In this document: piece after piece, positions 4,032-18,975 of the stretch | Layout of the letters: the number at the start of each line of letters is the position of its first letter | Position numbering within the stretch: the first letter of the stretch is position 1 | Assembly (NCBI GenBank): GCA_947258755.1 | Contig: CAMYJO010000005.1 | Span: forward strand, 1 to 64,000 | Direction of reading: 5' to 3' | Length of the DNA stretch: 64,000 nucleotides | Source of the DNA: an uncultured Gammaproteobacteria bacterium | GTDB taxonomy: Bacteria > Pseudomonadota > Gammaproteobacteria > JAADHQ01 | The notes under the pieces: generated by a model | Seen by the model: the letters and a program-made list of their open reading frames with translations, nothing else | Databases searched by the model: none | What the model was told of the DNA's origin: nothing | Position numbers and translations under genes: made by a program

Positions 4032-4820
4032 TCAAACTTTTCTGAGCCAGCTTGACCAGGCATCAAAAAGATTTTTATCTACGGCTGCAACCGCAGACCG
4101 TGGCTCAAGTCTGTCAACGAATACCGGCTCACCATCCAGTGAGCTGGAAAATCCCCCGGCTGCTGAAAAGATATACTGCCCAGCTGCATAGTCCCAAATA
4201 TTAGAGCGCCCATGTAGATATAAATGACAACGGCCCATTGCCAGCCAGCACCAGTCTAAGGCAACTGAACCAAAACTGCGTTGCGACGCATATGGCACTT
4301 CAGTAACGAGCCGCGTAGCAAGTGATCCAGTAAGGCGTTTAAAATCAATAATAGCGGTCGCCTGTCTGCATTGCATACCAGTATCCATGAGCTTTATAGC
4401 CTGCCCGTTTAATTGACTACCCTGCGCTTCATCAGCCGAAAAACATTCATCACGCGCTGGATCATAGACAATACCAAGCTGTACCTTGCCCTCAAATATC
4501 AACGCCAGTGAAACCGAAAAATAGGGTATACCGTTGCTAAAATTGTTAGTCCCATCAAGCGGATCAAGACACCATACCGGCTTGCCGGATGTTAGTATTT
4601 TCGCCTGCTCAGTCGTCGGCATTTCCTCACCGAGCAGCACGGTCTCTGGGTATAAGGCCAATAATTGTGCTTGTAAATGATGCTGCAAGGCATGATCGGC
4701 CTCTGTGATCACGCTTCCATCTGCCTTATAGTTGCGCTCCACCTTGGCATAATAAGGCATCAATACAGTCTTTGCCGAATCAATGACAACGCTTCTAATT
4801 GTATTTAGATCGTATTTCAT
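4032..4820 (-). CDS. Inositol monophosphatase-family protein (SuhB/CysQ-like)
   Basis: A 262-residue Mg2+/Li+-dependent phosphatase. The metal-binding motifs are visible: GEE near residue 64, the LDPLDGTNNF motif around 84-93 and the late motif NIWDYAAG, with WDYAAG being the usual C-terminal signature. Family members hydrolyse inositol-1-phosphate, PAP or fructose-1,6-bisphosphate; the sequence alone does not settle which. The ATG at 4820 gives typical family length; an in-frame ATG at 4862 would add 14 residues, and neither has a strong ribosome-binding site. It converges on sthA with a gap of only 12 bases. Confidence 0.82.
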   Translation of the reverse strand: MKYDLNTIRSVVIDSAKTVLMPYYAKVERNYKADGSVITEADHALQHHLQAQLLALYPETVLLGEEMPTTEQAKILTSGKPVWCLDPLDGTNNFSNGIPYFSVSLALIFEGKVQLGIVYDPARDECFSADEAQGSQLNGQAIKLMDTGMQCRQATAIIDFKRLTGSLATRLVTEVPYASQRSFGSVALDWCWLAMGRCHLYLHGRSNIWDYAAGQYIFSAAGGFSSSLDGEPVFVDRLEPRSAVAAVDKNLFDAWSSWLRKV

Positions 4821-5109
4821 GGATTTTATTTGAGTTAAAGAATAATAAATCTGTCTTGTCATTTCCAGAAAAGCTCATGACTGTTAGCCCCTTGCCAAAA
4901 TGAAGCCGCAAATGGCTATTCTACTCTGATTGCAAAGGCATTAAAAACCCTAATTAGATGAAGTTCAAGCACTTGTGTAGTCTGCATAGACAAAAGCAGG
5001 TACTCTGTATATATTTCAGCACATAGCACTATGAGAACCAGTCCTCAGTATCGTCATTCATGATCAGATATTTTTTAATGATTCATCAATAAGGAATGTG
5101 TAGCCAGCC

Positions 5110-7287
5110 ATGATCAGAAACGGATTTGTACTTTTCATTCTAATCTCTACTTTGACCCCGCTCATCAATGGTTGTGGTGGCGGTGGCGGCACGCCCGGTA
5201 GTAGCAACACTGATATCAGTGGTTTGGATACGCGCCCACAAAACAGTACCTGTATAGCACCTGAACGACCTACATCCAACTCCAATTTCACCACTACTCG
5301 GGTCTTTAACAACTTGCAATTCACTTCACCTGTCGCAATGTTACAGGCACCGGGCGATAATAGCCGCTGGTTTATCGTCGAACTGAATGGCACGGTTAGA
5401 GTTTTTGATAATGATGAAAATACTCTAACATCCAGCTTGTTTCTGGATATAAGCACTCAGGTCACCAGCGGTGGCGAACGTGGCTTACTCAATATGGCCC
5501 TGCACCCGGACTTTGCCAACAATGGCCAGGCTTTTCTCGCCTATACGGCAACGATCAACAACCAGCTGGTTTCGCGTATCTCACGTTTTTCAAGTAGCGA
5601 TGGTGGCCAGACCCTGAACAGTAGTAGCGAGGAAATTTTATTAGTAGTCAACCAGCCATACAATAACCATAACGGTGGCTTTTTGGCATTCGGACCTGAT
5701 AATTACCTTTATATTGGTTTTGGTGATGGCGGTTCAGCCGGGGACCCGCTTGGTCATGGACAAGACACCACTACCCTATTGGGTAATGTGTTAAGGATAG
5801 ATGTCGACAATGGCACACCCTATGCGATTCCTGCCGATAATCCATTTGTTAGCGATCCACCGAACCGCGCAGAGATTTATGCCTGGGGTTTACGCAACCC
5901 CTGGCGTGGTAGTTTCGATATCGCCAATGGAAGCCTATGGCTGGGGGATGTTGGTCAGAACCAATGGGAAGAGATCAACCTGATCGAGGCGAATGGCAAC
6001 TATGGCTGGAACATCAGGGAGGCAGCCCATTGCTATAACGATCCTAGCGAAAGCTGTAGCACAGCCGGTCTAATTGACCCGGTCCTTGAGTATGATCATG
6101 CTAACGGCGGACGATCGGTTACCGGTGGCGTTGTATACAGGGGCACAACTATTAATGAACTACAGGGTGCCTATATTTTTGGGGATTTTACCAATGGAAA
6201 AATATGGTATCTGGCAGATACGAACAGCAACACGCCGTCAGCGCAATTACTGCAAGACAGTGGCCTGAATATCAGTTCTTTCGGGCAAGACCAGGAGGGC
6301 GAAGTTTATGTTGTCAATTATGGCGGCAATATACATAAAATCGTTTATCAGACGAACAGTAATAACGATACCATCCCTGCGCTCTTATCCATGACAGGCT
6401 GCGTTGATATCAATAATCCTCAACAGGCGACCAGCGGCCTGATCCCATATCAAGTTAACGCCTCATTTTGGTCAGACGGCGCCATTAAGGAACGCTGGCT
6501 GGCTATTCCAGATAATACCACGATCAGCATTAATGCAAGCCATGACTGGGCTTTACCACCCGGCTCTGTCTTGATGAAGCACTTCCGCATCAATAATAAA
6601 CTCATTGAGACACGCCTGTTCATGCACCATAGTAATGGCGGCTGGGGTGGCTACACGTATGAATGGAATGACCAGGAAACCGATGCAACACTTGTCAAAG
6701 GTGGAAAAACAAGAACCCTCGCAAACCAAAACTGGTATTATCCAAGAAGTGCGGATTGTATGCAGTGCCATACCCAAGCAGCAGGTTTCAGCCTCGGACT
6801 GGAGACTGCACAATTCAATCGGGAGATCAACTATACCAGTAGCGGCCGAAACGCTAATCAATTGACGACACTAGATCATATTGGCCTATTCAGTAGCCCT
6901 TTATCGACGACTGCATCCAATCTACCGAAGCTACCGGAACCTTTTGGCAATGCAGCTATTGATGACCGTGCGCGTGCGTGGCTACACACTAATTGCGCTC
7001 AATGCCACCGCAGCAATGGTCCGACACCAGTAACATTGGACCTTGACTACAACACGGCAATGTCACAAACGGGGCTATGCAACCAGGTCCCTCAGAGCGG
7101 GAATTTAGGGATTTCAGATGCACGTATCATTGCACCAGGACAAGCTTCCAGATCGGTGCTTTTCGCACGAGTGAATACACGCGATGCCAACGGCATGCCA
7201 CCCCTGGCAAGCCAGGAGATAGATACTGCTGGAGTTAATCTCTTGCAGACATGGATTGCGGGCATGAACAATTCTTGTGAATACTAA
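5110..7287 (+). CDS. PQQ-type sugar dehydrogenase lipoprotein fused to a diheme cytochrome c domain
   Basis: A 725-residue protein beginning with a lipoprotein signal (LINGCGGGGG, lipid Cys at about 22). Residues 60-420 match the soluble aldose sugar dehydrogenase (GSDH/YliI) beta-propeller, with GFGDGGSAGDP, LGNVLRIDVD and WGLRNPWR motifs. The C-terminal third carries two CxxCH heme c motifs, CMQCH near residue 550 and CAQCH near 630, in the arrangement of the SO2930-type diheme domain. This suggests a periplasm-facing, membrane-anchored quinoprotein dehydrogenase that passes electrons internally to hemes. Substrate unknown. The ribosome-binding site is weak (AAGGAA far upstream). The fusion architecture is known in related bacteria. 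Downstream lies a CRP-like palindrome. Confidence 0.8.
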   Translation: MIRNGFVLFILISTLTPLINGCGGGGGTPGSSNTDISGLDTRPQNSTCIAPERPTSNSNFTTTRVFNNLQFTSPVAMLQAPGDNSRWFIVELNGTVRVFDNDENTLTSSLFLDISTQVTSGGERGLLNMALHPDFANNGQAFLAYTATINNQLVSRISRFSSSDGGQTLNSSSEEILLVVNQPYNNHNGGFLAFGPDNYLYIGFGDGGSAGDPLGHGQDTTTLLGNVLRIDVDNGTPYAIPADNPFVSDPPNRAEIYAWGLRNPWRGSFDIANGSLWLGDVGQNQWEEINLIEANGNYGWNIREAAHCYNDPSESCSTAGLIDPVLEYDHANGGRSVTGGVVYRGTTINELQGAYIFGDFTNGKIWYLADTNSNTPSAQLLQDSGLNISSFGQDQEGEVYVVNYGGNIHKIVYQTNSNNDTIPALLSMTGCVDINNPQQATSGLIPYQVNASFWSDGAIKERWLAIPDNTTISINASHDWALPPGSVLMKHFRINNKLIETRLFMHHSNGGWGGYTYEWNDQETDATLVKGGKTRTLANQNWYYPRSADCMQCHTQAAGFSLGLETAQFNREINYTSSGRNANQLTTLDHIGLFSSPLSTTASNLPKLPEPFGNAAIDDRARAWLHTNCAQCHRSNGPTPVTLDLDYNTAMSQTGLCNQVPQSGNLGISDARIIAPGQASRSVLFARVNTRDANGMPPLASQEIDTAGVNLLQTWIAGMNNSCEY

Positions 7288-11665: not shown

Positions 11666-13384
11666 ATGGTCAGACATAACATAGTCTTTGTTTTATTACG
11701 GCGCCTGCACTCGCCATTGATTGCACTGGTCTGTGTCTATGCAGTCTGCATACTCGGTTTCGTGCTCATTCCCGGACTCGATGACAAGGGACAGGTTTGG
11801 CATATGGACTTCTTCCATGCCTTCTACTTTGTCAGCTTTATGGGTACGACGATCGGTTTTGGTGAAATCCCTTATGCCTTTACCGAAGCCCAACGCATGT
11901 GGGCGACAGTATCCATCTATGCCACAGTAGTTGTATGGCTGTATGGAATCGGTTTCCTGCTGACTATTTTGCAGGAGCCCGGTTTTGTTCAGCTCATGCA
12001 ACAGACCTCTTTTCAACGTAAGATTAGACGTATACGCGATCCCTTTTACCTCGTATGTGGATACGGTGATACCGGCAGTAAACTGGTCAGAGCCCTGACT
12101 GAATCGTCAATCACCGCCATTGTTATCGAAATAGACCCTGAAAGAGTCAACATACTCGAACTCGAGGACCACCGTATCTTTGTACCCGGCTTGTGTGCGG
12201 ATGCCTCGACGCCGGATTCCTTGATTATGGCAGGCGTAAAAAGTAAAAACTGTATTGGCGTCGTAGCACTAACCAATGATGATGCCGTAAACCTCAGAGT
12301 TGCTATAACCTCTACCCTGCTCAACCCCGGTGTACGCGTCATCGCCCGTGCAGAAACGCACGATGCCGAAAATAATATCTGCTCTTTCGGCAACTCAGAG
12401 GTGATTAATCCGTATGTAACATTTGCCGGACGTCTGGCCATGGCCATTCATTCACCCGGTGCTTTCCTGTTACATGAATGGCTCACCAGTGTTCCGCATG
12501 AAAACCTGACTGAACCCTTGTTCCCGCCACATGGGAAATGGATTCTGTGCGGCTATGGACGCTTTGGCAAGGCGGTACACGAGCGTATCGTAGCAGAGGG
12601 CCTGGAAGTCACTATCGTTGAGGCCAAACCTGAAAAAACCAATGCCCCGGGCAACGTGATTGTCGGCCGCGGCACAGAGGCCGTGACACTTGAGCAGGCC
12701 GGCATCAAGGATGCGGTCGGTATTGTTGCAGGCACCGATGATGATGCTAATAACCTCTCCATATTAATGACGGCCAGAGAGCTCAAACCAGATTTATTCA
12801 TGGTCGTCCGTCAAAATTCACGTAGTAATGACGCCATATTCAAGGCCGCTGATATTGATCTGATTATGCGTCGCGGCAGTATTATTGCACACAAATTGTT
12901 CGCCATGATGCGTACGCCGCTATTGACCAAATTCCTACGTCTTGCCCGCGAGCAGGAGGAAAGTTGGGCCAATCAACTGATCAGCAGAATCGGAGGAATT
13001 ATTGCAGACCAACCACCAATCACCTGGGAAATAGATATCACCAAGGCGAGCGCGCCTGCAGTTTTTGACCGTTTACTGGCCGGGGCAGACATTCAGCTAC
13101 ATAGCCTGCTCAAAGACCCGCAAAATCGCGAGCAGATATTACCATGCATCCCTATCTTGATAAGCCGCGAAAACCGACAACACATGTTACTGCCAGACCT
13201 GGATATGAAGATCGAAATCGGTGATGAAATATTATTCTGTGGTAATATAAAAGCACGCAGGATGACCGATTGGCTGACAATGAATCCGTATGTTTTCAAC
13301 TACATCGTTACCGGCGAAGAGCATCCGAGTGGCTACCTTTGGAACCTGTTGACCCGAAATAAGAAACAGGCCTCACCTTCATAG
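11666..13384 (+). CDS. Potassium channel protein with two TrkA-N (RCK) domains
   Basis: A 572-residue protein. Two membrane helices (about residues 15-36 and 75-98) flank a pore loop with the selectivity-filter-like sequence TTIGFGE. Two cytoplasmic RCK units follow, each with a Rossmann motif: CGYGDTGSKLV near 130 and CGYGRFGKAVH near 292, and a TrkA-C-like part near the C terminus. This is the architecture of Kch/MthK-type ligand-gated K+ channels, with tandem RCK domains binding nucleotides or ions. The filter reads IGFGE instead of the common VGYGD, a variant seen in several bacterial channels. It forms an operon with the DUF6394 gene. Confidence 0.85.
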   Translation: MVRHNIVFVLLRRLHSPLIALVCVYAVCILGFVLIPGLDDKGQVWHMDFFHAFYFVSFMGTTIGFGEIPYAFTEAQRMWATVSIYATVVVWLYGIGFLLTILQEPGFVQLMQQTSFQRKIRRIRDPFYLVCGYGDTGSKLVRALTESSITAIVIEIDPERVNILELEDHRIFVPGLCADASTPDSLIMAGVKSKNCIGVVALTNDDAVNLRVAITSTLLNPGVRVIARAETHDAENNICSFGNSEVINPYVTFAGRLAMAIHSPGAFLLHEWLTSVPHENLTEPLFPPHGKWILCGYGRFGKAVHERIVAEGLEVTIVEAKPEKTNAPGNVIVGRGTEAVTLEQAGIKDAVGIVAGTDDDANNLSILMTARELKPDLFMVVRQNSRSNDAIFKAADIDLIMRRGSIIAHKLFAMMRTPLLTKFLRLAREQEESWANQLISRIGGIIADQPPITWEIDITKASAPAVFDRLLAGADIQLHSLLKDPQNREQILPCIPILISRENRQHMLLPDLDMKIEIGDEILFCGNIKARRMTDWLTMNPYVFNYIVTGEEHPSGYLWNLLTRNKKQASPS

Positions 13385-13789
13385 AATACAAGTAAACGGC
13401 GAGTATTTTAGGGTCAAACGTATCTGCTTACAACACTACTCGGTGCACATTAACACATAAAATCGAAAACTATTCCTGTATCAAAAACAACGAGACGGCC
13501 TTACCAGAAATTTACTCCCAATTTTAATAGCACGTTCTACACATCAGTAGAGATGCCATGAGCATGCGAATAAGCATCTGTATTTAACATCAATAAACTT
13601 ATTAAACTTTTGTGATATTTGCGTGACTTCTTCTGTTCATGCTCATTCCTTTACATTATTTCAGTTTAATCAATATTGTATTATATCCACCCTGGATGAA
13701 CATTCAGCTAGCAAGCAGCAAGACTGCTGAATATAAGTTAACTCACTGGATATACTCAATATCATTTAACCAATCTAGGAGTCATCATT
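13385..13789. other. Intergenic region upstream of the bufferin operon
   Basis: About 400 AT-rich bases with no supported gene. It must contain the bufA promoter. I looked for an ECF-sigma-type pair, because bufferin operons in other bacteria can be under ECF sigma control, and did not find a convincing one; a vegetative-type TTTACA around 13650 with AT-rich sequence downstream is possible. Confidence 0.35.
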
Positions 13790-14044
13790 ATGAAAAGTGC
13801 TAAAATAACAGGCGCCGCAATGGCTATAGCCGCCGCTGGAATGTTTGCAACAGTACCAGTATCAGCAATGTCTGGAGGTACCGACAGCAAGGTCCATTGC
13901 TATGGAGTCAATAAATGCAAAGGCCATAACGATTGTAAAACCGACAAAAATGCCTGCAAGGGTCACGCAAGTTGCAAAGGACAAGGTTTTGTCAGCATGT
14001 CTAATCATGCATGCGATGAAATAGGCGGCAAGGTCGGTAAATAA
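13790..14044 (+). CDS. bufA: BufA2-type bufferin metallophore precursor
   Basis: An 84-residue peptide with a Sec signal (cleavage after VPVSA, about residue 26) and a mature part containing six cysteines spaced C-x5-C-x5-C-x6-C-x5-C-x12-C, most of them in CKG or CKT contexts. This Cys pattern is that of bufferins, ribosomally made periplasmic copper-binding peptides whose cysteines are modified by the MNIO enzyme encoded next door. Modification of the middle cysteines in CKT/CKG contexts is inferred from family knowledge. A strong AGGAG site precedes the ATG. The gene is followed by a hairpin at 14056-14088 and then bufB, so precursor and enzyme can be made in different amounts. Confidence 0.85.
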
Positions 14045-14055
14045 ACCCGATTAAC

Positions 14056-14088
14056 ATGAATAGGCAGGCAGCTTGCCTGTCTATTCAT
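14056..14088 (+). promoter_or_regulatory. Intercistronic hairpin between bufA and bufB
   Basis: ATGAATAGGCAGGCA (14056-14070), loop GCT, and TGCCTGTCTATTCAT (14074-14088) form a 15-bp stem with one G-T wobble. No T-run follows, so it looks more like an attenuator or 3' mRNA stabiliser for bufA than a full terminator. The bufB start, 48 bases on, has no close ribosome-binding site. Confidence 0.7.
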
Positions 14089-14136
14089 ATAATATGTCAT
14101 CCATGAATAAGGAAAGATAAATCAACACATACTGAT

Positions 14137-14991
14137 ATGATTAAAAAACATCCACCCTACCCTAACCTGGGTTATGGCCTGGGATTGCGTAGCGAGTACT
14201 ATGACACAATCCTTGAAAAGTCTCCCGAGGTTGACTGGTTTGAAGTCATTACAGAAAACTATATGGTTGATGGTGGCAAACCATTGCACTACCTGGACAA
14301 AATACGAGAGCGCTACCCGGTCGTTATGCATGGTGTCAGCCTTTCGATCGGCAGCACCGATTCGATAAATCTTGAATACCTGAAAAACTTAAAACAGCTT
14401 GCTGATCGAATACAGCCGGTCTGGATCTCCGACCACTTATGCTGGACCATCCATAATGGTCATAATGCACATGACCTGTTGCCTTTACCTTACAACAAAG
14501 CAACGATAAATCACCTGGCTGAGCGCATAGATCAGGTTCAGAATTATCTTGGCCGACAAATACTAATGGAAAATGTATCCAGCTACGTCACTTACACCGA
14601 TTCCGAGATGAGCGAATGGGAATTTTATTCAAACATCGTAGAAAAAGCCGATTGCCTTATGCTTCTGGATATCAATAATATTTATGTCAGTGCAATCAAC
14701 CACAATTTCGACCCGCACGAATACCTAGATAACGTCCCGAGCAACCGCGTACAACAGATTCATCTGGCGGGGCATACAAATTATGGCAATTTCATTATAG
14801 ACACTCATGACCAGCCCATCGTTGATTCAGTCTGGGAATTATATCAATACAGCCTGCAACGCCTCGGGTCCGTTACAACAATGATAGAACGCGATGATAA
14901 TTTTCCGCCATTCCATGAATTAATGGCGGAACTTGAACAGGCCAGAAAAATAGGCAACGAATGGCAGGATAAGAAAACATGTACAGTCTGA
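14137..14991 (+). CDS. bufB: MNIO-family bufferin-modifying enzyme (DUF692)
   Basis: A 284-residue TIM-barrel protein of the DUF692/MNIO (multinuclear non-heme iron oxidase) family. Family motifs are all present: WFEVITENY (about 30-38), HGVSLSIGSTD (about 67-77), SDHLCW (about 105-110), ENVSSYV, LDINNIYVSA with the downstream DPHEYL, and IHLAGH. The His, Glu, Asp and Asn residues in these motifs are the iron ligands. The enzyme would oxidise cysteines of the BufA precursor, together with BufC. It overlaps bufC by 13 bases, indicating translational coupling. The ribosome-binding site is weak: AAGGAAAG lies more than 20 bases upstream of this ATG. Confidence 0.92.
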   Translation: MIKKHPPYPNLGYGLGLRSEYYDTILEKSPEVDWFEVITENYMVDGGKPLHYLDKIRERYPVVMHGVSLSIGSTDSINLEYLKNLKQLADRIQPVWISDHLCWTIHNGHNAHDLLPLPYNKATINHLAERIDQVQNYLGRQILMENVSSYVTYTDSEMSEWEFYSNIVEKADCLMLLDINNIYVSAINHNFDPHEYLDNVPSNRVQQIHLAGHTNYGNFIIDTHDQPIVDSVWELYQYSLQRLGSVTTMIERDDNFPPFHELMAELEQARKIGNEWQDKKTCTV

Positions 14992-15782
14992 AGGAATTAC
15001 AGACTAGTTTTCAACGACATTTGCTCCATGGGGACAATGATATAATCGAACATATTGTCAGCAGCCAACACGCCAGCGATAAAGAGCGCCTGGCTACCTA
15101 CAAAAATGCCTACTATGGACGACTTGCCGAAGCCCTGGCTACTGATTTCCCAGCTGTAAAAATGAGCATCGGCAGCGATCAATTCTCCAAACTGTGCTCG
15201 GACTACATCGATAAACATCCATCTACTGATACTTCACTGCGCTGGTTCGGTATTCACTTCAGTGAGTTCATACAGCAACATACTGTCATTGAGGACTATA
15301 AATTTCTGACGGAGCTGGCCACACTAGAATGGATGTTTATCAATGCTTTCGATGCTAGCAATGCAGATCCTGTTCCAGCATCACTGGTTACCACAATTCC
15401 GAATGAATCCTGGCCAAATATTACAATCGACCTACATCCCTCAGTCTACACGCTCAACAGCCATTGGAATGTAGTGGAAATCTGGCAAGCCATGCAACAA
15501 CATCAGACAGCCCCGCAGGCGATGTACCTAGCAGAGGCGTCCACCTGCGTCATCTGGAGACAAGGACTCAGTACGCGTTACCGCATTCTGGACAAGTTCG
15601 AAGCCATCGCCCTACATAGTGCCGCTCAGGGCGCTACATATGCTCAGATATGCGAACGTCTTGCACAGAGTATTGATGAACAAGTCCCTGATTTTACAGA
15701 ATTAGCGATGCTATGCGCCCGCCTACTAAAAACCTGGTTGACCGAAGGGATGATCGCGCGACTATCCACTGATACGCAATAG
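14979..15782 (+). CDS. bufC: BufC partner protein (DUF2063 N-terminal domain)
   Basis: A 267-residue protein whose first 90 residues match the DUF2063 'putative DNA-binding' domain that always accompanies MNIO enzymes: LKELQTSFQRHLL, RLATYKNAYYGRLAEAL and DFPAVKMSIG. Despite the old family name, these proteins bind the precursor peptide and deliver it to the MNIO enzyme. The C-terminal half (about 110-260) is the partner-specific part. The start lies inside the end of bufB. The end is about 50 bases before msrA, which may extend the operon. Confidence 0.88.
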   Translation: MYSLKELQTSFQRHLLHGDNDIIEHIVSSQHASDKERLATYKNAYYGRLAEALATDFPAVKMSIGSDQFSKLCSDYIDKHPSTDTSLRWFGIHFSEFIQQHTVIEDYKFLTELATLEWMFINAFDASNADPVPASLVTTIPNESWPNITIDLHPSVYTLNSHWNVVEIWQAMQQHQTAPQAMYLAEASTCVIWRQGLSTRYRILDKFEAIALHSAAQGATYAQICERLAQSIDEQVPDFTELAMLCARLLKTWLTEGMIARLSTDTQ

Positions 15783-15833
15783 AACTTTCTATCCTTACAC
15801 CGGTCTATTAATCAAACATCAACGGGTACACTC

Positions 15834-16454
15834 ATGCGCATTTTCGTCAAAATCGGATTATTACTACTATCATCAATGCTGTTACAAAGCGTGGCCATGG
15901 CCATGAAACCAGCAAGTACAAACACTAATGCAGTTGCCATACTCGCCGGTGGCTGCTTCTGGTGTATAGAAGCTGACTTTGAAAAACTGAAGGGAATCAG
16001 CAGCGCCGTTTCAGGCTATATTGGTGGCCACATCAAGAACCCCACCTATAAACAGGTTTCCAGAGGAAATAGCGGACATATAGAAGCCGTCAGTATTCAA
16101 TATGACCCTCGCGTAATTAGTTATAAGCAGATACTCGATTTTTTCTGGCGCCATATTGATCCCACACGTGATGATGGCCAATTTTGCGACCGCGGCAGAC
16201 AATACCGCCCAGCAATATTTTATCTGGACGAACAACAACATAAAATCGCCATTGCGTCAAAGCAGAATATTGAAAAAATAAAACCATTCAAACAAGCGAT
16301 TAAAGTAGAATTAATCAAGGCAACAGAATTTTATCCCGCTGAAACCTACCATCAAGACTATTACAAGAAAAACCCGTTGCGTTACAAATATTATCGCTTC
16401 TCCTGTAGGCGGGATGCACGTGTAGAAGAATTATGGCAAAATAGCAGTCCATAA
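15834..16454 (+). CDS. msrA: Periplasmic peptide methionine sulfoxide reductase A
   Basis: A 206-residue MsrA with an N-terminal signal peptide (hydrophobic residues 6-22). The catalytic motif GGCFWC is at about residues 39-44, followed by GYIGGH, SGHIEAV and DPTRDDGQFCDRGRQYR. It reduces Met-S-sulfoxide in proteins. MsrA is usually cytoplasmic; export here suggests repair of periplasmic proteins. The commonly seen GHAE motif is GHIE here. Cysteines near the C terminus (FSCRRD) could resolve the catalytic sulfenate. Its place 51 bases after bufC and before a TlpA-like protein groups it with thiol and copper-stress functions. Confidence 0.9.
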   Translation: MRIFVKIGLLLLSSMLLQSVAMAMKPASTNTNAVAILAGGCFWCIEADFEKLKGISSAVSGYIGGHIKNPTYKQVSRGNSGHIEAVSIQYDPRVISYKQILDFFWRHIDPTRDDGQFCDRGRQYRPAIFYLDEQQHKIAIASKQNIEKIKPFKQAIKVELIKATEFYPAETYHQDYYKKNPLRYKYYRFSCRRDARVEELWQNSSP

Positions 16455-16512
16455 AGCCGTATACACACTAGGTGAGTGCTGCAGCTGGCTCAGCCAGCTT
16501 GGTAATATATAC

Positions 16513-16992
16513 ATGAATAGAGTACAGAGCATCGTCCTACTGATAGGTCTTCTATCAGCCAGTTTACTGACACAAGCAGGATTAAAGCCCGGGCATACAG
16601 CCCCGCCATTCACCCTGAAGAGTCTTGATGGTCCAAACATTTCACTAGCAGAGCTGACAGCAAAGGGACATGTGATGCTGATATTCTGGGAGACAGAATG
16701 TGTTTACTGTTTCATGCATATCAAGGAGTTCAATGCATTACATGAACAATACAAGGACAAGGGCCTGACTATAACTGCTATCAATTTTCTCGGCGAACAT
16801 GAAGCCGCAGTCAGAGAATATGTCAGTAATCACCAGCTAAAATATCTGATGCTTAGCGAACGCGTGAAAAATATCGATGTCGCCAATAAATACAAGGTGA
16901 TAGGTTCTCCAACTATTGTTGTCGTGTCACCGCAGCGGAAAATCCTGTTTTACGGTCATAAGATCCCTGATATCGGCAACTGGATTAAATAA
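16513..16992 (+). CDS. TlpA-like periplasmic thiol-disulfide protein
   Basis: A 159-residue secreted thioredoxin-fold protein: signal peptide (about 1-22, ending TQA), then PPFTLKSLDG, the active site ETECVYCFMH (CxxC at about residues 56-59), and the cis-proline motif GSPTIVVV near 132-139. It belongs to the redoxin/TlpA/ResA group, which reduces or exchanges disulfides in the periplasm. It follows msrA by 58 bases; one attractive role is to recycle oxidised MsrA, but this is inference. The protein ends soon after the last strand, so it is short for the family. Confidence 0.82.
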   Translation: MNRVQSIVLLIGLLSASLLTQAGLKPGHTAPPFTLKSLDGPNISLAELTAKGHVMLIFWETECVYCFMHIKEFNALHEQYKDKGLTITAINFLGEHEAAVREYVSNHQLKYLMLSERVKNIDVANKYKVIGSPTIVVVSPQRKILFYGHKIPDIGNWIK

Positions 16993-17007
16993 ACCCCCGT
17001 TTACTGA

Positions 17008-18975
17008 TCAGATATCGACGCCATCATCCACGCTAGATTGCGGAATCGGTGGCATCCGCTCACGGATCCTTCTGACCGGTAGACCCAAACGTTTTTCATA
17101 GACTACTGAGTAGGCCAGAATATTACGCAAATAATTACGTGTTTCCTTGAACGGTATATTCTCAATCCAAACATCGACCGGCAAACTATTGGTCTTAGTT
17201 AGCCAGGACCTGACCCGCGACTTACCTGCATTATAAGCGGCGATCGCTAACACCGGGTGTTTCATTAATTCATGTTTGATATCGTTAAGATAATAGACGC
17301 CGAATTTAATATTGACTGATGGTTGATTTAGTTCTTTCAGATTAGATATCTTGACCTGTAACTGTCGCGCCACCTGTTTGGCAGTAGACGGCAATAGCTG
17401 CATCAAACCGCGCGCATTACTGGAAGACCTGGCGTTTTCCTGAAAAGCACTCTCTTGGCGTATGACAGCCAACGCCAGTGCGGTATCAATAATGGTACTG
17501 CGGGTATGCTCGTGGATCTCTGAAATATGTTTGAGTGGAAAACGCAACTGCAGATCATCCCATTCGGACAGCCCGGCCAATGTGACGATGGTTTGATTGT
17601 TCCAGCCCCACTGATAGGCTAACCAAGCCGCACTAGCCTTCTGTTTCGCCGTCAACTTAGAGGCTACTCTGTTCCACTCACGACGCGCCTCTGTAAAGCG
17701 TTTTAGTAACATTAATTCCCTGGCCCGGGCCATACCAGGATTATTGATTAGTGAGCTGACGAATTGTCTATCAAAATCCAGGTCCCTGTGCTTATAAGTA
17801 TAATCGACACCGACAACATCGGCCGCCAGAAAACCCTCATAACTTCTGTTGGCAGAAATACCCGTAAATATCTCCTTGGCTTTGTCAGCCTGCCTGAGTT
17901 CTGAATAGGCTCGTGCCAGCCAATATTGCCAGCGATCTTGTGCCTGAGTTCCCTGGCCGAGCTTATTGATATGAGTAAGCACCTGCTGCCAATCCTGGTG
18001 CCGCATTGCAGTCCTGATTTTCCACTTAAGGACACGTTCACTCAGGTACTTCTCTGGTACGCGCTGTAGCCATAAATCCGCTTGCGGATGAAATCTACGC
18101 GCCAGGCTAATCGCCAGTATTTGCTTGATTTTCCCGTCCAGCTTTTTCAGTCGCATATACCGCGGCAACCTCTCTGCGAACTCTATCGCCTGATCGGGGT
18201 AATACCAGGCCAACGCCGAAAACTTGAAATCTACCAGGTCTACGGCATCCGCATGCGCCAGTAAGGATTCCTGCAATAATAAGCGCGAGTCTTTATACAC
18301 ACGCAACCATACTTTCATTTGTTCACGTGATACAGCTGGAAGCTGGCTGAGTAATTGTCGTGCCAACTTGAGATTATTTTTTTTCAGGGAAAGCCAAATG
18401 CGCTTTCTAAGCATTTGCTCGGTGACCGGGTACTTCTTTTGCCAATCGTCGATCAATGTCTTGCATTCATTCGGCAATGAATAGCCTGTCATCCAGATTG
18501 ATTTTATTTTTTTAGATCGGTCGTAATTTTTCTTTGTTGCAATAAAGGCACGTTCTCGTAGACAGATCAGAGATTTTCTATTGGTTGCTTTATAATGGTT
18601 AAGAAAGTCCTGCCACTGCCCTTTCTCTGCCAAGGTTTTTAACCAGATGCTTCGTAGTCTAAATGACACCGGGGAATCATCGAATGCCTGTAAAAAACTC
18701 ACAATCTCCACTGCTCTGGCATCTTTGATACGCGCCTGTAAATCCATAAAACGCAGATACGGATACAGCGGGTAATCTCGTAACGCATTCAAGCTATCCC
18801 AGTATTGCATCCGGTCGCCGTCAGCTAATGCCTGCTCAGCCTGCTGGAATTGCTGTCTTTGTTGAATATAGATATCCGTCGTCGGAGAAGCGAATGACGA
18901 TGTGGTCATCAGAGAAAGTATCAATGTGGCGAAGATGCCGAGGTATTTCATGTTAGTAAATTCGAATTTTTTCAT
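17008..18975 (-). CDS. slt: Soluble lytic murein transglycosylase
   Basis: A 655-residue Slt70-type enzyme. A signal peptide (ends FASP near residue 29) is followed by a long helical superhelix (about 35-480) and a C-terminal lysozyme-like domain. The catalytic Glu lies in AVIRQESAFQ (about residue 508), followed by ARGLMQLLPSTAKQ and AYNAGKSRVRSWL. It cleaves peptidoglycan between MurNAc and GlcNAc to give 1,6-anhydro ends. Length matches the E. coli protein. An in-frame ATG at 18951 is an alternative start that also gives a good signal peptide; neither has a strong ribosome-binding site. It converges on the TlpA-like gene. Confidence 0.92.
   Translation of the reverse strand: MKKFEFTNMKYLGIFATLILSLMTTSSFASPTTDIYIQQRQQFQQAEQALADGDRMQYWDSLNALRDYPLYPYLRFMDLQARIKDARAVEIVSFLQAFDDSPVSFRLRSIWLKTLAEKGQWQDFLNHYKATNRKSLICLRERAFIATKKNYDRSKKIKSIWMTGYSLPNECKTLIDDWQKKYPVTEQMLRKRIWLSLKKNNLKLARQLLSQLPAVSREQMKVWLRVYKDSRLLLQESLLAHADAVDLVDFKFSALAWYYPDQAIEFAERLPRYMRLKKLDGKIKQILAISLARRFHPQADLWLQRVPEKYLSERVLKWKIRTAMRHQDWQQVLTHINKLGQGTQAQDRWQYWLARAYSELRQADKAKEIFTGISANRSYEGFLAADVVGVDYTYKHRDLDFDRQFVSSLINNPGMARARELMLLKRFTEARREWNRVASKLTAKQKASAAWLAYQWGWNNQTIVTLAGLSEWDDLQLRFPLKHISEIHEHTRSTIIDTALALAVIRQESAFQENARSSSNARGLMQLLPSTAKQVARQLQVKISNLKELNQPSVNIKFGVYYLNDIKHELMKHPVLAIAAYNAGKSRVRSWLTKTNSLPVDVWIENIPFKETRNYLRNILAYSVVYEKRLGLPVRRIRERMPPIPQSSVDDGVDI

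Follow-up and report, generated by a model that had tools for sequence, protein, structure and literature searches.

The 64,000-nt window analysed here (contig CAMYJO010000005.1, from an uncultured gammaproteobacterium), whose numbering is used throughout, carries five genes on the + strand between positions 13790 and 16992: bufA (13790-14044), bufB (14137-14991) and bufC (14979-15782), which encode a bufferin system, followed by msrA (15834-16454) for an exported peptide-methionine (S)-sulfoxide reductase and a tlpA-like gene (16513-16992, hereafter tlpA) for an exported thioredoxin-like protein. With a probability of about two in three, these genes make up two adjacent, separately controlled envelope-defence units, bufABC and msrA-tlpA, as predicted from their sequences. 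Judged by family membership, the former is a Buf2 bufferin cluster of the ordinary kind; the latter is most likely a pair for periplasmic methionine sulfoxide repair driven by sigmaE (RpoE), with read-through from bufABC being possible. A first-pass annotation of the same DNA had proposed a combined copper/oxidation defence module; of this proposal, periplasmic repair by MsrA and TlpA is plausible, but the linkage survey and the predicted promoter described below do not support a unit that is conserved or served by a single promoter.

A predicted sigmaE promoter between bufC and msrA

Separate control of msrA is suggested by a predicted sigmaE promoter, GAACTT-N15-GTCTAT (15782-15808, + strand), the -35 element of which begins on the final base of the bufC stop codon. 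While intergenic DNA of the window and of G002, a genome of the same genus, is only about 50-57% alike, the motif is identical in 12 of 12 positions and has the same spacing; the spacer itself agrees in 5 of 15 positions and the stretch from the -10 element to the start codon in 13 of 25. The E. coli sigmaE promoter has the -35 element GGAACTT and the -10 element TCAAA (PMC2893595), and the site fits the RpoE type in its GAACTT-type -35, its TCnA-type -10 and its spacing. A stricter pattern, GAACTT-N15-GTCNRA, has no match in G000 or G002; the local -10 element ends in T.

The genome encodes RpoE (TIGR02939, 323 bits, over the cut-off), followed by RseA-like and RseB-like open reading frames, and GAACTT-N15-GTCGAT lies upstream of rpoE; in G002, too, rpoE is preceded by this type of element, which there has one additional mismatch. 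Each of the two genomes contains the exact 12-base motif twice, ahead of msrA and ahead of a gene resembling glutamate synthase, and both pairs are orthologous. A related intergenic match precedes a gene for a BepA-like M48/TPR protease; in E. coli, bepA belongs to the targets of RpoE. Upstream of the glutamate-synthase-domain gene the identical motif is found at a distance of 71 bp (C16:127396 in the same genome as the window, C6:21682 in G002), which would add this gene, unexpectedly, to the candidate targets of RpoE.

Before other exported msrA genes, sigmaE-type sites were found only as two-mismatch matches, in three cases, and RpoE control of msrA is therefore not claimed beyond the genus. 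No such site was found before bufA when the window was scanned. Scans for sigma70 promoters and for terminators gave no more matches than were obtained in shuffled sequences, and an Rfam scan of 13300-17100 gave none. A hairpin between msrA and tlpA (AGCTGGCTCAGCCAGCT, 16483-16499) was not taken as a terminator; it has no T run and is not conserved in G002. The first-pass annotation had read all five genes as one operon and had itself named separate promoters as the observation that would speak against this; the conserved site at 15782-15808, as a predicted promoter of msrA, would largely provide it.

Linkage of bufABC and msrA-tlpA within one genus

The sources of the Buf2-type neighbourhoods were named contigs and a sample of the genomes of the class, about 5-8 kb being read on each side of a locus; some of the sampled loci are possibly near-duplicates. 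The genes bufA, bufB and bufC occur together in 53 other loci, 43 of which extend at least 3 kb beyond bufC. In one of these 43, L100 of G002, msrA-tlpA follows bufC, and this locus is syntenic with the window throughout (DUF6394, TrkA, bufABC, msrA, tlpA, SLT, FolE); as the whole neighbourhood is syntenic and the genus is the same, the adjacency in G002 is not independent evidence. No msrA was found with bufABC in the remaining 42 of the 43, although a linked msrA would have been detected, since the second MsrA of the genome under study, at 39% identity, was found at E = 2e-26. The closest relatives outside the genus, L163 (BufA 77-81%, BufB 71%) and L101 (BufB 73%), are among the loci without msrA. 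Thus, recurrence of bufABC-msrA-tlpA in independent lineages was not observed in the comparable loci, and the linkage is a genus-level feature rather than a conserved extension of bufferin systems. A lack of msrA beside bufABC in related genomes was the other observation that the first-pass annotation had named as contrary to its proposal, and this is largely what the survey shows. According to Antoine et al., only an extremely small share of bufferin clusters contains extra conserved genes (PMC12452194).

Outside the genus the repair genes have other surroundings: orthologues of TlpA (53-58% identity) are solitary in G001, G047 and G004, distant from both msrA and buf genes, and exported MsrA homologues are often encoded downstream of an exported MsrB. 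At L163:7308-9411 (genome G134), bufABC is followed by two small peptides that share the motif CTACCSGWDIRF and have no Pfam match, and by another protein with an MNIO domain (494 aa); peptides and enzyme are possibly a second cluster for a ribosomally synthesized and post-translationally modified peptide.

The encoded proteins and the repeat upstream of bufA

The genes are closely spaced, bufC starting within bufB (13-bp overlap) and the gaps being 92 bp between bufA and bufB, 51 bp between bufC and msrA, and 58 bp between msrA and tlpA; the run is closed by a convergent gene for an SLT lytic transglycosylase, which ends at 17008. Gaps of 51 and 58 bp are by themselves no proof of an operon. 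BufA is a BufA2-type six-Cys precursor with an N-terminal Sec-type signal (NF050166, 90.4 bits; equivalog cut-off 60 bits), and its residues C37, C43, C49, C56, C62 and C75 are invariant in an alignment with 11 homologues. BufB is an MNIO bufferin maturase (NF050167, 393 bits, cut-off 310 bits; PF05114, 384 bits) and BufC a DUF2063-type MNIO partner (PF09836, 73 bits) that scores under the HvfC cut-off. A BufA2 protein above its cut-off, six Cys conserved in its mature portion and an adjoining BufB-type MNIO with its DUF2063 partner are the features by which the cluster belongs to Buf2. MsrA (PF01625, 209 bits; TIGR00401, 188 bits) retains its catalytic GCFWC, CDRGxQYRPAIF and the C-terminal Cys191 when aligned. 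The TlpA-like protein, which belongs to the AhpC-TSA/Redoxin family (PF00578, 68 bits), retains C63-x-x-C66, the CVYC active site, and a GSPT cis-Pro loop; the Sec-type N-termini of these two proteins were judged by eye. The best fold match of the AlphaFold model of the TlpA-like protein (pLDDT 90.7) is ResA, with Etrx2 lower down, and its relatives in the Protein Data Bank by profile search include ResA, TlpA and Etrx2. The N-domain of PilB was considered as closest relative and rejected, as profile and fold matches favour ResA. ORFs and families thus bear out the gene calls of the first-pass annotation (six-Cys BufA, MNIO, DUF2063 protein, exported MsrA and TlpA-like protein, rightward with short gaps), and both equivalog cut-offs being passed, its identification of a BufABC bufferin system holds.

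In having a six-Cys Sec-exported precursor, an MNIO, a DUF2063 partner and the usual gene order, the cluster resembles other Buf2 (BUF_6/12Cys, BufA2) clusters; it differs from them in that it contains no DoxX gene and is followed by msrA-tlpA. A second MNIO cluster in the same genome (C2:213-216 kb; L036:5377-8195) encodes a precursor with EGKCG repeats and an EF-hand-like stretch, an MNIO, a partner and a DoxX-like protein, and looks like an oxazolin/Hvf-type cluster from its gene content.

Upstream of bufA lies a candidate operator/promoter element, a tandem 11-bp direct repeat (GTGATATTTGC and GTGACTTCTTC) together with TGTTCATGCT (13612-13643, + strand, 178 bp upstream of bufA). In G002, where the repeat extends to about four copies, 29 of its 32 positions are identical, the surrounding intergenic region being about 50% identical. 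On the coding strand, GTGA-N7-GTGA is present in 12 of 70 bufA2 upstream regions, as against 0.25 expected in Markov shuffles, or roughly 0.36 when the background rate of all loci is taken, the pattern having been framed on four of these upstream sequences, which are not independent. Of the spacings from 2 to 15, none besides N7 exceeds one occurrence in these regions, and the consensus repeat with at most two mismatches is found in 13 of them (0.5 expected). Instances come from several families (L100:7456, L101:5840, L168:5573 and L170:5539, besides the window), and GTGA-N7-GTGA is a candidate shared operator of bufA2 genes. A tandem repeat of 11 bp would suit a response regulator of the OmpR/PhoB type; in L168, such a regulator (4731-5429) and its kinase are encoded divergently from bufA. 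A perfect copy also stands before a gene for an extracytoplasmic function (ECF) sigma factor (L062:11159), so that control by an ECF factor stays possible.

In G012, a genome without any BufA2 match, GTGA stands three times at an 11-bp period directly upstream of an exported msrA (L122:6266-6291); being one case of 21, this is no more than a lead. Elsewhere in the genome under study (contig C18, L037), a copy with one mismatch (L037:1060) is found ahead of a gene for a 152-aa exported protein, and beside it there is a fragment of a BufB-like MNIO gene, comprising the C-terminal part only (C18:2009-2227); this arrangement is read as a putative decayed bufferin locus.

Weighing the explanations

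For the two-unit arrangement, the following scheme is proposed. BufB and BufC would modify Cys residues of BufA, which would be exported and, as expected from its family, sequester copper in the periplasm; the three genes would be transcribed from upstream of bufA, probably via a regulator reading the tandem repeat at 13612. The sigmaE-type promoter at the bufC/msrA junction would drive msrA-tlpA, whereupon methionine oxidised in envelope proteins would be repaired by exported MsrA. This enzyme would be re-reduced by the TlpA-like protein, and the latter recharged by a DsbD/CcdA-type protein. Transcripts of bufABC may read through into msrA, and copper could then raise repair capacity as well. 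The recycling step is modelled on pneumococcus, where the thioredoxin-fold Etrx proteins reduce MsrAB2 (PMC3914529); here, too, a thioredoxin-fold CxxC protein is encoded beside its presumed client, as in PilB/Etrx-type chains. With Etrx1-CcdA1-MsrAB2 of Streptococcus pneumoniae the locus shares an exported thioredoxin-fold protein encoded beside Msr, and the fold and profile matches of the TlpA-like protein include Etrx2 (4hqz); however, the Etrx proteins are lipoproteins of a Gram-positive organism, whereas here there is no lipobox, Msr is represented by MsrA only, and the locus lacks a ccdA gene. Neisseria PilB, a thioredoxin-MsrA-MsrB fusion, likewise places a thioredoxin-like module and MsrA in the periplasm, but here the genes are separate and there is no MsrB domain.

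Regulatory precedent comes from the sigmaE (Ecf) regulon of Neisseria and the RpoE2 regulon of Haemophilus, in which an ECF sigma factor controls periplasmic methionine sulfoxide repair (PMC2893595, PMC7907618), and genes of the MNIO-partner type belong to the same regulatory circle (PMC2893595, PMC7907618, PMC3511200): in the meningococcus, msrAB is under sigmaE, as is the operon of sigmaE itself, which encodes DoxX-like and DUF2063 proteins (PMC2893595). The present locus is unlike these in that both sets are adjacent, the bufferin genes lack a sigmaE-type site, MsrA is not fused to MsrB, and the msrA promoter does not have the neisserial -35 but matches the RpoE type of E. coli. In Caulobacter, SigF runs Buf1-type operons, and msrA expression is unchanged by SigF (PMC3511200).

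Several observations weigh against the two-unit scheme. The sigmaE motif is not enriched genome-wide, its counts being similar to or below those of a reversed control; the evidence for the promoter consists of orthologous conservation and placement in two genomes only, and it was the alignment that prompted the search. Between bufC and msrA no terminator was found, which leaves room for read-through or for one five-gene transcript. The role of TlpA as reductant of MsrA rests on adjacency and analogy, and the N-domain of PilB is absent from the best structural matches listed for it.

The missing terminator, the common strand and short gaps, the gene order kept in G002 and the convergent SLT gene that closes the run would all suit a single copper-induced operon, in which copper triggers both synthesis of the chelator and repair of copper-driven methionine oxidation; given the conserved predicted promoter before msrA, the absence of the extension from 42 of 43 Buf2 loci and the extreme rarity of extra conserved genes in bufferin clusters (PMC12452194), such an operon appears improbable. 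Still less probable, indeed quite unlikely, is that the TlpA-like protein, alone or together with MsrA, assists the bufferin by keeping the Cys of BufA reduced, by repairing the peptide or by loading copper. Proteins of the ResA/TlpA fold do handle Cys of exported metal-binding proteins, and the adjacency in the window has a partner in L182 (L182:4424-5512, genome G141), where a TlpA-like gene (28% identity) is directly upstream of a double-domain bufA with bufBC; yet orthologues are kept in G001 and G004, neither of which gave a BufA2 match, and apart from G002 a TlpA-like gene is within reach in only two of the 53 other Buf2 loci, both being distant homologues. L182, whose double-domain BufA has a lipobox-like N-terminus, is the only other close TlpA-bufferin adjacency in the survey.

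That two unrelated units have simply been co-inherited in one small genus, without functional connection, is somewhat unlikely. The wholly syntenic neighbourhood from TrkA to FolE, a linkage that does not recur independently and an msrA with its own predicted promoter are what such co-inheritance would leave behind; against it, the envelope is the site of action of both units and each has a stress function, and the exported msrA of G012 is preceded by a bufA-type 11-bp repeat, though in one case of 21. Conversely, the units might be functionally coupled, bufABC being under a copper or metal regulator, perhaps of a two-component system, that reads the tandem repeat, with read-through into an RpoE-responsive msrA-tlpA, and the same regulator generally controlling Buf2 bufferins and, in some lineages, exported msrA; this is a speculative and rather unlikely extension. 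If true, metal stress and envelope damage would both feed one locus for bufferin synthesis and methionine repair, and the regulator of the 11-bp repeat would be an undescribed general controller.

On comparison, then, the attractive five-gene defence module falls apart into a bufferin cluster of the standard kind and a repair pair for which a separate promoter is predicted; the locus is better described as two envelope-stress units side by side. Two testable leads emerge from it, namely that periplasmic methionine sulfoxide repair may be under RpoE control in this lineage, and that Buf2 bufferin genes share a candidate operator. As to how Buf2 genes are switched on, Antoine et al. found genes for a sigma factor and an anti-sigma factor in Buf1 clusters and not in Buf2 clusters (PMC12452194).

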